Shown in pieces: positions 9,638 to 14,744 of a stretch of DNA of 64,000 nucleotides. This stretch comes from an uncultured bacterium (GTDB taxonomy: Bacteria; Patescibacteriota; Saccharimonadia; Saccharimonadales; Saccharimonadaceae), in the NCBI GenBank assembly GCA_902761145.1, contig CACWJA010000002.1, forward strand, positions 62,001 through 126,000. The letters run 5' to 3'. Under the pieces are notes generated by a model. That model worked only from the letters and a program-made list of their open reading frames with translations. It ran no database searches and had not been told where the DNA came from. A program made the position numbers and the translations under genes. How positions within the stretch are numbered: position 1 is the first letter of the stretch; every line of letters begins with the position of its first letter.

Positions 9638-10342
9638 ATGACTAATGTTTTTAAAGATAAAAGACAGAATAACGAGGAGGCAAAAGATATGGCTAGTGTA
9701 AGAAAAGCAAGTGAATTAATATCTTTGGATGAGCTTAATCTCCCCAAGAGAATATACAACTGCGTGAAAGACATCCAGCCGGAAGAGTTAGTTTTCTTAG
9801 TGAGAACCCGTAAAAAGATCGCAGGCATAGGAGAAAAGCTTTCGAGAAAGCTTGAAGCCGCCATGGATCAAGCTGGATTTATCCGGCACGATTTCGACGA
9901 CAGGAGCTTTGGTGTTGCCGTTCTTTACAGATCAGTAAACTGGCGCTTTGCCGGCAAGAACGGTTGGCCATATGCTTACTATTTGAGCTTTGACTCCAAT
10001 GAAGCCTATGAGTGTTATGAGAACTTCTCTGAGACACAGATTACCGCCGTAAATGACCTCCTGAACGAGCTCTTCGGTAAGGAAAAAAGCCTTGTTCTTC
10101 AGCTTCGTTATGGCCTTAAGGATGGCAGAATGAGAACCCTGGAAGAGACGGCTGTAGAGTTATATGGCGCAGAACACGAAGAGTGCATGCTCGACTTCGA
10201 CGACTTCGAATATGGAGAGGAAGAAGACAAAAACTTCGGAATGAGCATTCACCGGATCGAATGTGAGAGCTTGCGTATGCTTAGAGGGTGTATATCCGCT
10301 CGGATTGAGCTTGATACTATTTTGGCACCTCCCGCTAAGTAG
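9638..10342 (+). CDS. Protein with RNA polymerase alpha-CTD-like and sigma-70 region-4-like domains
   Basis: 234 residues from ATG 9638 (GGAGG upstream); ATG 9689, behind GAGGAGG, is a serious alternative. Residues about 25-85 match the RNA polymerase alpha C-terminal domain: ISLDELNLPKRIYNCVK, then GIGEKLSRKLEAAMDQAGF. Residues about 142-220 match sigma-70 region 4: SLVLQLRYGLKDGRMRTLEE, then an insert of about 25 acidic residues (179-200), then SIHRIECESLRMLRG in the recognition-helix position. A DNA-binding role at promoters is inferred. Regions 1-3 of a sigma factor and the alpha N-terminal domain are absent, so it is neither a full sigma nor an alpha subunit. It stands alone, promoter to terminator, just before secE. 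Codon use differs from the core genes, suggesting transfer. Confidence 0.75.
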   Translation: MTNVFKDKRQNNEEAKDMASVRKASELISLDELNLPKRIYNCVKDIQPEELVFLVRTRKKIAGIGEKLSRKLEAAMDQAGFIRHDFDDRSFGVAVLYRSVNWRFAGKNGWPYAYYLSFDSNEAYECYENFSETQITAVNDLLNELFGKEKSLVLQLRYGLKDGRMRTLEETAVELYGAEHEECMLDFDDFEYGEEEDKNFGMSIHRIECESLRMLRGCISARIELDTILAPPAK

Positions 10343-10363: not shown

Positions 10364-10392
10364 TTGCCCCGGCAGCCTGTCGGGGCTTTTTG
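10364..10392 (+). terminator. Intrinsic terminator, exact repeat of the one at 9.4 kb
   Basis: GCCCCG-GCAGCCTGT-CGGGGC followed by T5. The 29 nt are identical to 9399-9427. Confidence 0.85.
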
Positions 10393-10413
10393 CTGTAAAA
10401 TCACAAAAATCCA

Positions 10414-10442: not shown

Positions 10443-10449
10443 GTTGACA

Positions 10450-10470
10450 AGTCTGGTATCAGACTTTTTT
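10450..10470 (+). promoter_or_regulatory. Terminator-like hairpin at the 5' end of the secE mRNA
   Basis: AGTCTG-GTAT-CAGACT followed by T6 begins about 8 nt after the -10 box, so it would form the first bases of the transcript. It could be an attenuator or a 5' stabilising hairpin. Its position so close to the start site is unusual for a terminator. Confidence 0.5.
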
Positions 10471-11466: not shown

Positions 11467-11493
11467 AAGACCGCCTCAGCGGTCTTTATTTTT
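11467..11493. terminator. Bidirectional terminator between nusG and membrane protein
   Basis: AAGACCGC / GCGGTCTT stem with T-rich flanks on both strands, placed between convergent genes. Confidence 0.85.
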
Positions 11494-11988
11494 GATATTG
11501 CTTTCGTTTGATAATTGGATTTGCTTTTGTGCAATCCCTATATTGATGTCGTTCATACTTCTGCTGATTGGAATACCGAGCCCATTATCAATGGTAACAA
11601 GAATCATCTTGAGTTTGTGAATCTCAGCGTTCATCAATGTGCGTCTTATGGTTTCTGCTTTTTTTAGTCCATCAGCACGTATGATGGTCCAAATGATACC
11701 GACTGCTATCAGGCATAAAGCCATTATGCATAGAGCGTTCTCCGTGGTATTTTGGCTCAAGCTTGAGTCTCCCATAAAGTGGACAATGATGGCTCCAATA
11801 AGAAGCCCTATACCACACCAGAATGTTGTGGTTGCAGACGCAGCCAGTAGCCTGACTACTCTACTCGTATTTCTCCCGTCATTGTCGCGTTGCAATGATT
11901 TAATTGCTATTTCTTCGATAACCTGCCCCCGTACTTTCATCAGATTTTCTTCTGCCGAAATGTTCCTATCCGCTATATCATTTTTCAT
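11476..11988 (-). CDS. Two-helix membrane protein, about 170 aa
   Basis: ATG 11988 is favoured over ATG 11994 because it sits 9 nt from the GGAG. The N-terminal 45 residues are charged (coiled-coil-like), then come two transmembrane helices (about 53-72 and 84-103) and a C-terminal amphipathic part. No family recognised. Its promoter carries a perfect 16-bp palindrome, so it is probably repressed by a dimeric regulator. It sits between nusG and rplK. Confidence 0.65.
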   Translation of the reverse strand: MKNDIADRNISAEENLMKVRGQVIEEIAIKSLQRDNDGRNTSRVVRLLAASATTTFWCGIGLLIGAIIVHFMGDSSLSQNTTENALCIMALCLIAVGIIWTIIRADGLKKAETIRRTLMNAEIHKLKMILVTIDNGLGIPISRSMNDINIGIAQKQIQLSNESNIKNKDR

Positions 11989-12009
11989 GACCATCAGCTC
12001 CTTTCGCGG

Positions 12010-12146: not shown

Positions 12147-12824
12147 ATGGATATGGAACTCAGTAAGTACGAAGTAAAAGACGTAGTCTTAAACAACGAT
12201 ATCGCTACGGCGGTTGAAATGCTGGAAGGGTTTGGTTTCAACGTGGCCGGACTCACCGACAAGTACTCTTCGGCAAGCAAAGAACTCGCGGCATGCATGC
12301 TATGCACCATGTCGGTTGCAGCTATGCACGACAAACTTACGGATGAGTTCGCACAAGAAATCATCAACCGTGTAGGGTCATTTGTATCAGTGTTTGATCT
12401 GATCCGAATGGTAATTATCGGCGCCAATATTCGCGTTAATGATCTTGGCTGCTTGCCCTCGGATGTACTATGGGCTGTTTTTTACAGCGATTTTTCAGAT
12501 GATACTGTTGAAAAAATTGGTACACTGGGCGTAGCGGAGTTTGAATCTCTGCTGGTGCTTTTCACCGGAAAAATCAGAATGCCGAAAACCGTCGGCGTTG
12601 CAGTTCTTAAGAAAATTCATGAATGCAACCTGATACCCAGCTACCAGTTATACAGCTTAATGGCTGCTTATCTTCTCGCGCCTTCAAACGATTCATCCGC
12701 TTTTCTCCCAGGTTTATTTGGCGCCATGGATCTCTTAGGCTTTTTCGGTTCGCCTCTTTCCTCAGACGATGAGGAAGAGCAGGAATACGATGATGACGAG
12801 GAAACCGACATGGACGCCTTTTGA
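12147..12824 (+). CDS. Hypothetical protein with acidic tail, 225 aa
   Basis: ATG 12147 follows GGAGGTGG. The protein is mostly helical, with a hydrophobic central region (VSVFDLIRMVIIGANI) but no clear membrane helix. It ends in a strongly acidic tail (SSDDEEEQEYDDDEETD, about 204-221). No family recognised. It has its own promoter and terminator between nusG and rplK, and its codon use resembles the other accessory units, with more gcc, ctg and aac than the ribosomal genes. Confidence 0.65.
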   Translation: MDMELSKYEVKDVVLNNDIATAVEMLEGFGFNVAGLTDKYSSASKELAACMLCTMSVAAMHDKLTDEFAQEIINRVGSFVSVFDLIRMVIIGANIRVNDLGCLPSDVLWAVFYSDFSDDTVEKIGTLGVAEFESLLVLFTGKIRMPKTVGVAVLKKIHECNLIPSYQLYSLMAAYLLAPSNDSSAFLPGLFGAMDLLGFFGSPLSSDDEEEQEYDDDEETDMDAF

Positions 12825-14226: not shown

Positions 14227-14255
14227 TTGACACTTTATTATTTTGATGCTATAAT
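14227..14255 (+). promoter_or_regulatory. Promoter of 145-aa gene
   Basis: TTGACA (14227-14232), 17-nt spacer, TATAAT (14250-14255). The spacer is similar to that at 9454-9470. Confidence 0.85.
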
Positions 14256-14306
14256 ATAAAGTGTGGGGATTATTAGCCCCAAGAATCTTAGAAAGAAGGG
14301 TTGATT

Positions 14307-14744
14307 GTGAGCATTTCGAAACGAGCAGCTTGCACAAGAAGAGCAATGGAGCTTTGGCAAATCCACGGAGAGAAGTATTCTACAAATATCTCTCGATACC
14401 AAGATTTACTTCAAAAGAAGCAAACAATGGGTATCGAGCCACTTCGCAAAATTCAAAAATCAATACTCCAGGAATATCCTAAAGTTCCTTTTCTTATGCT
14501 TACTAGCAAAATCGAAGCAGAAGCATATCTTAAGCAGCTCAGCATAGTGGATATAGAAAATTTGATACACCGTATCGAATATGTTACAGGATACGATCAC
14601 GCATATCGTACCGTATCGGAACGTGTAGTCGAATTCCAGTACCAAGTCGACCACTATGGTCAAAAAAGTGCATACGGCATAGATCCAGACTCGATAAGCG
14701 GCAGAAAAAGAGGCCGTAATCATAAAATGGATGATAAAAAATAA
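14307..14744 (+). CDS. Hypothetical protein, 145 aa
   Basis: GTG 14307 is chosen because AGAAGGG ends 6 nt upstream; TTG 14301 would abut it. Soluble, helical and basic, ending in a Lys/Arg-rich tail (SGRKRGRNHKMDDKK). The middle (AYLKQLSIVDIENLIHRIEY) reads like paired amphipathic helices. No family recognised; a nucleic-acid-binding role is only suggested by the basic tail. A stand-alone unit between rplK and rplA. Confidence 0.6.
   Translation: MSISKRAACTRRAMELWQIHGEKYSTNISRYQDLLQKKQTMGIEPLRKIQKSILQEYPKVPFLMLTSKIEAEAYLKQLSIVDIENLIHRIEYVTGYDHAYRTVSERVVEFQYQVDHYGQKSAYGIDPDSISGRKRGRNHKMDDKK

Follow-up and report, generated by a model that had tools for sequence, protein, structure and literature searches.

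The window analyzed here, a 64,000-nucleotide stretch that is part of an 872-kb genome in 11 contigs, carries a gene for a 234-residue protein, P0001, between a phosphorylase gene and secE (Table 1). The phosphorylase-secE gap spans 57-102 bp in 13 of 14 relatives and 1,688 bp in the window, and we therefore consider the P0001 gene an insertion at this site. Two units occupy the enlarged gap; each has a dedicated promoter, and both end in a common 32-nt terminator. The two terminator copies are 97% identical, and since no others occur in the genome at up to three mismatches, a role for the repeat as a recombination site is only suggestive. The first-pass annotation had taken proximity to secE-nusG as a clue to function, a view that did not survive comparison: 13 of the 14 relatives lack the inserted gene, which has a promoter and terminator of its own, and other family members adjoin prfB, rplC, trmD, an ABC-transporter region and other genes, which argues against a role tied to the secE-nusG operon.

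Table 1. Features of the P0001 locus, in window coordinates.
Feature	Position	Strand	Basis or detail
Neighbouring cassette, small two-helix membrane ORF	9101..9322	+	own 12/12 promoter 8909-8937
Upstream copy of 32-nt terminator repeat TTGCCCCGGCAGCCTGTCGGGGCTTTTTGTTG	9399..9430	+	direct repeat of 10364-10395
Promoter TTGACT-17-TATAAT, extended -10 (TG)	9448..9476	+	consensus matches 11/12
Structured 5' leader, three hairpins	9482..9637	+	P1 9485-9500, P2 9504-9515, P3 9563-9579
Shared leader motif, here GCGAGAAAATTAAAAA (family consensus GTGAGTACATTAAAAA)	9513..9528	+	leave-one-out score
CDS of alphaCTD-like / sigma4-like protein (P0001)	9638..10342	+	234 aa ORF
Alternative internal start, strong SD GAGGAGG	9689	+	SD stronger than at 9638
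AlphaCTD-like helix-hairpin-helix domain, aa 18-82	9689..9883	+	hhalign vs alphaCTD profile
Family-specific connecting segment, aa 83-131, nearly invariant Y124-E125	9884..10030	+	alignment, 28 sequences
Sigma-70 region-4-like domain, first part, aa 132-177	10031..10168	+	NCBIfam, PDB, Foldseek
Acidic insert splitting the helix-turn-helix, aa 178-202	10169..10243	+	net charge -10
Recognition-helix equivalent SIHRIECESLRMLRGC, aa 203-218	10244..10291	+	model helix 204-217
Downstream terminator, second copy of 32-nt repeat	10364..10395	+	repeat comparison

Several other elements of this region deserve a record. The first unit in the gap (window 8909-9430), a membrane-ORF cassette with a perfect TTGACA-17-TATAAT promoter, ends at the first terminator copy, and similar DNA occurs in genome G127 (L183 3222-3458). 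There, a 5.2-kb array of small accessory ORFs, one of them GNAT-like, lies between phosphorylase and secE (L183 1924-7106) and includes two structured-leader copies and three related terminators. Immediately downstream of the P0001 unit, the secE leader carries a hairpin and T-run directly 3' of the -10 element (window 10443-10470, TTGACAAGTCTGGTATCAGACTTTTTT) that is nearly identical in almost all relatives examined and could serve as an attenuator right where the secE-nusG transcript begins. The nusG-rplK interval contains two more inserted accessory ORFs: one at 11476-11994 (-), matched in genome G069 by an ORF in the corresponding position with 30% identity, and one at 12147-12824 (+) that was not found in 14 relatives. 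Between rplK and rplA, a fast-evolving ORF (14301-14744) without a Pfam match occupies the same place in many relatives at 27-44% identity, and its upstream promoter (14227-14258) resembles that of P0001.

The first-pass annotation had described P0001 as a fusion of an RNA polymerase alphaCTD-like domain with one resembling sigma region 4, and profile searches of each half bore this out, through a family profile for the former and RpoD models for the latter. The direct match of P0001 to the alphaCTD model PF03118 is weak, covering residues 23-47 with an E-value of 0.0042 and 17.2 bits, below the 23.8 cut-off. The profile of family N-terminal domains aligned by hhalign with an alphaCTD profile, composed of 14 family C-terminal alphaCTDs and the host RpoA alphaCTD, at 95.9% probability (E 6e-9, score 45.4). 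Controls reached a maximum of 16.9 over 200 column shuffles, 11.3 for the reversed profile and 12.1 for sigma4 versus alphaCTD, and the P0001 N-domain alone scored 41.4. Equivalents of R265, N268, G296 and K298 are all kept in P0001, a full set found in few N-domains; R265 is retained in 7 of 18 family N-domains, and the family's C-terminal alphaCTDs keep R265 in 8/14 and N268 in 8/14. In E. coli RpoA these residues have UP-element-binding roles, and those discussed below have -35-reading roles in E. coli RpoD. Profile comparison thus confirmed that the N-terminal domain of P0001 is homologous to the RNA polymerase alphaCTD.

For the C-terminal half, NCBIfam RpoD models matched residues 138-172 (best E 1.3e-5) and PDB RpoD region 4 aligned at E 4.6e-4; the NCBIfam matches of P0001 to RpoA and RpoD are partial and far under cut-offs. 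An AlphaFold model of P0001, built from 28 window and locus sequences (pLDDT 85.1, pTM 0.78), placed helices where expected, and Foldseek paired it with sigma-A region 4 at probabilities of 0.96-0.99 (4g6d, 4g8x, 8cwr), with E-values only about 0.1-1. TM-scores of 0.67-0.69 to 4g6d and 4g8x indicate the region 4 fold. Pfam, NCBIfam and PDB matches revealed no sigma region 2 in P0001. Together, the sequence matches and the predicted structure confirmed the C-terminal half as a sigma-70 region-4 domain. Either half alone falls below the curated Pfam cut-offs; the identification of P0001 rests on its family.

The acidic insert annotated ahead of the recognition helix is indeed present. Its 25 residues (178-202) have a net charge of -10, equal to that of the whole protein, and pLDDT values of 55-59, and in the 28-sequence alignment it occurs in P0001 alone, missing from every aligned relative. 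The alignment software set the P0001 segment 'AEHEECM', which precedes the insert, at sigma-70 positions 582-588; a hand alignment using the sequence past the insert gives S, H and R at 586, 588 and 589. Under neither alignment does P0001 keep R584, R586, R588 or Q589, and -35-reading residues are poorly kept family-wide (R584 4/27, R586 5/27, Q589 4/27). Because the reading residues have changed and an insert of -10 charge lies on that face, the window copy has probably lost direct -35 reading. The earlier proposal that both domains contact promoter DNA is accordingly split: it is doubtful for the sigma4 half, given these changes and the roughly ten acidic charges on the -35-reading face, whereas the alphaCTD-like half retains the four residue equivalents named above and may bind DNA.

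Comparison with relatives placed P0001 within a larger architecture. The long form of the family runs from an alphaCTD-like domain through the YE segment, sigma4 and an optional coil to a canonical alphaCTD, and the connecting segment (aa 83-131) has no Pfam match. In the archetype (L011/L014), PF04545 and PF03118 matched with E-values of 1.2e-11 and 2.7e-23, and the C-terminal domain exceeds the PF03118 cut-off in L011/L014, L003, L006 and L013. The L014 model (pLDDT 89) matched alphaCTD 1z3e and sigma4 4g6d by Foldseek, both at probability 1.00. The two-domain architecture first assigned to P0001 therefore describes the window copy correctly but is incomplete for the family, as fuller relatives add the C-terminal canonical alphaCTD that the window copy lacks.

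When 118 genomes from the genus were searched with profiles and the fetched loci were re-analysed, family members emerged in 27 genomes, alongside RpoD and RpoA matches; four of these (G060, G073, G083, G120) match by sigma4 and alphaCTD alone. Across 295 genomes of the order, the N-domain profile matched 15, which all belong to a single genus of ruminant-gut Saccharibacteria; the other 142 sampled genera gave no match. Against genome contigs, the single P0001 protein returned nothing and a conserved sub-alignment returned nine loci; relatives there are Candidatus Saccharibacteria MAGs, mostly labelled ruminant gut. Members are few per genome, 20-50% identical, situated at differing sites and sporadic in their presence across genomes. 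One 9-kb contig (L045, G107:C16) carries four divergent members, three within 4.5 kb, a local expansion. Near family members in two genomes we also observed a 335-337-aa family (L055 3618-4625 and L044 7765-8778), both copies of which start ...FN..GVTSG.SW.REI and of which the L055 copy has no Pfam match. A phage or plasmid origin was considered and rejected: three scans of viral contigs recovered no family member, the phage search with P0001 gave no match, and the longer relatives gave partial matches to phage and plasmid sequences, none covering 80% of the query.

The reduced form of P0001 raises the question of whether this gene once encoded a regulator and is now in decay, having lost its C-terminal alphaCTD and gained an insert in its helix-turn-helix. 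In the closest relative, L021 (43% identity overall), the helix-turn-helix is unbroken and a C-terminal domain aligns with alphaCTDs, and the one further copy in the same genome is a 124-aa N-terminal piece just downstream of prfB (L044 4704-5078; G000:C4:54703-55077), both of which would fit such decay. The pattern of substitution argues otherwise. Relative to the homologue in G069, third-codon identity is 48% for the P0001 gene and 45-54% for five neighbours, and identity at first and second codon positions is 70% against 89-99%. The corresponding estimates are dN 0.37-0.42 and dS 1.1-1.8, for a dN/dS of about 0.2-0.4 that is rough because dS is near saturation; with dN that far below dS, the gene is under purifying selection and not a pseudogene. 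By these sequence comparisons, the protein changes several times faster than its housekeeping neighbours, yet is selected. The ORF is also intact and has a good promoter, SD and terminator; the insert preserves the reading frame and the sequence on either side of it continues to align, the model is confident outside it, and three further relatives (L022, L048, L019) lack the C-terminal domain as well. We therefore regard decay as rather unlikely.

The closest homologue, in G069, lies upstream of trmD. It shares promoter, leader and terminator with P0001 and has counterparts of both P0001 starts and both SD sites. The terminator that follows it is 87% identical over 52 nt to the one downstream of P0001, and other cassettes end in related terminators. 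G069, whose NusG is 99% identical, fills its own phosphorylase-secE gap with different ORFs. The leader of about 150 nt is 82% identical between the two genomes, compared with 62% for the CDS as a whole and the lower value at its third codon positions. When 174 genomes were searched at the DNA level, long matches to the leader appeared only in G069, G127 (two) and G087, while in the remaining genomes almost only the promoter part of the query matched. In the five leader sequences, the three hairpins are paired in 98.8% of cells, against 30-50% in slid controls, and compensatory change occurs in 5 pairs, a result reached by 2 of 500 shuffles. Taken by itself, the window leader has an unremarkable fold energy (z -0.47), so the claim of structure rests on covariation in these five sequences. 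A covariance model (R1) scored its five source leaders at 117-127 bits, that of P0001 at 125.8, and across 705 kb the next matches reached 27 bits, one of them just upstream of a family member in L046. No Rfam family matches the P0001 leader.

The leaders in G127 and G087, together with the promoter shared with P0001, occupy the same phosphorylase-secE interval and precede unrelated ORFs of 166 and 145 aa; the two ORFs scanned, both from G127, have no Pfam match. This arrangement, with its shared terminators, would fit P0001 being one of many interchangeable accessory genes set between common promoter-leader and terminator sequences and not tied to any set function in transcription. We consider this very unlikely, as the domain content is specifically that of promoter-facing polymerase parts and as family members elsewhere, whose leaders are otherwise different, have a leader motif in common. 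This 16-nt motif is found in the leaders of diverged members. The window copy has a leave-one-out score of 13.5, a value matched by 0.4% of 494 control leaders; 20 of 28 family leaders fall in the top 5% of the same controls, and 16 of 26 fall within the top 5% of 325 promoter-bearing control leaders. The binomial p of 5e-15 overstates the significance, since the motif was first noticed by eye and the members are not fully independent. The motif looks boxA-like (boxA consensus GYTCTTTAANA; PMC5725501). The genome's own rrn leader scores 8.1, an ordinary value, which leaves an identity with boxA unsupported.

Because the motif is common to members, it suggests joint control of the family once transcription has begun, by attenuation, antitermination or autoregulation. 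A bolder proposal is that the genus holds a pool of exchangeable cassettes, with a shared promoter and structured leader and a shared terminator, whose alphaCTD-sigma4 proteins are dedicated regulators of those leaders. If true, this would amount to a self-contained accessory transcription system assembled from duplicated polymerase parts, but we judge it quite unlikely.

In the holoenzyme, alphaCTD and sigma region 4 make contact with one another as well as with the promoter. The P0001 domains would thus copy the parts of the holoenzyme that face the upstream promoter, the alphaCTD at the UP element and sigma region 4 at the -35 element and beta-flap, in a host that has an ordinary RpoA with its CTD and an ordinary RpoD. 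Our preferred reading, to which we assign a probability of about one half, is that P0001 is a stand-alone regulator that mimics this upstream face of RNA polymerase. The sigma4-coil-alphaCTD fusions that recur elsewhere in the phylum speak for it as well. Such a protein would act on transcription initiation by binding RNA polymerase, AT-rich promoter DNA or both: the sigma4 body may sit on the beta-flap or against the host alphaCTD, the alphaCTD-like domain may bind AT-rich promoter DNA, and the holoenzyme could thereby be recruited to or blocked at chosen promoters. Since the sigma4 half probably no longer reads the -35 element, the window copy should act mainly through its alphaCTD-like domain and protein contacts. 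From its sequence, the label of promoter-specific regulator given by the first-pass annotation is plausible. Against a regulator stand the several members without a C-terminal alphaCTD and the poor conservation of -35-reading residues, and sporadic presence would be unusual in a protein that regulates core promoters.

Some of these features would also be expected of a decoy, in which the alphaCTD and sigma4 surfaces of P0001 soak up phage or competitor proteins that attack RNA polymerase. Examples of such attack are AsiA or G1 ORF67 on sigma4 and ADP-ribosylation of alphaCTD R265. Arg265 of alphaCTD is a target of modification by T4, and the beta-flap is a docking site for several effectors (PMC2988020). 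A decoy would explain rapid protein change equally naturally as a regulator does, and sporadic presence, a scaffold that is kept while DNA-reading residues drift, and the R265 equivalent in a share of N-domains also fit. We saw no defence-gene neighbourhood around P0001, however, the protein matches nothing in PADLOC, where longer relatives match only single domains of MzaA and PglW, and the viral contig scans described above did not recover the family, leaving a decoy role unlikely.

Under the regulator reading, the family would be lineage-specific, with its own conserved leader RNA, and would bear on gene control in these parasites, in which few regulators are recognised. The family diversified within a reduced-genome epibiont lineage, and it opens a direct route to the question of whether polymerase domains that face the promoter can find a second use as free regulators or decoys.

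No curated family in Pfam, PHROG or PADLOC covers P0001, and the open-access literature searched held no description of the family; its component domains are known, and their combination and leader appear to be new. Relative to the alphaCTD (PF03118), the P0001 N-domain has a homologous fold and profile and keeps the R265, N268, G296 and K298 equivalents, and the archetype's C-terminal domain is a canonical alphaCTD. In contrast to RpoA, P0001 lacks an alpha-NTD, and is therefore not an RNA polymerase subunit, and its N-domain lies under the Pfam cut-off. With sigma-70 region 4 (PF04545, RpoD domain 4) it shares the fold, the region 4.1 sequence and the helix-turn-helix scaffold, but it has neither sigma2 nor sigma3, its helix-turn-helix is split by the acidic insert and its residues for -35 reading have changed. 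A precedent for a small, independent protein that takes the place of sigma domain 4 is T4 gp33, which mimics sigma4 in free form and binds the beta-flap (PMC2988020). It has no recognisable sigma similarity and carries a sliding-clamp motif, whereas the P0001 family has clear sigma homology and attached alphaCTD domains, and the flap binding known for gp33 is, for P0001, proposed by analogy. In BREX, PglW carries an alphaCTD-like domain and BrxL a sigma-HTH-like domain, separately (PMC12839542); these are large multidomain defence proteins, and P0001 has no kinase or ATPase. In other Patescibacteria, sigma4-coil-alphaCTD fusions with the same domain pairing recur (L143, L145), and one protein is a full-length sigma-70 in which region 4 is followed by an added alphaCTD-like domain (L144); all three differ from the P0001 family in lacking its genus-specific N-terminal alphaCTD-like domain and YE segment.
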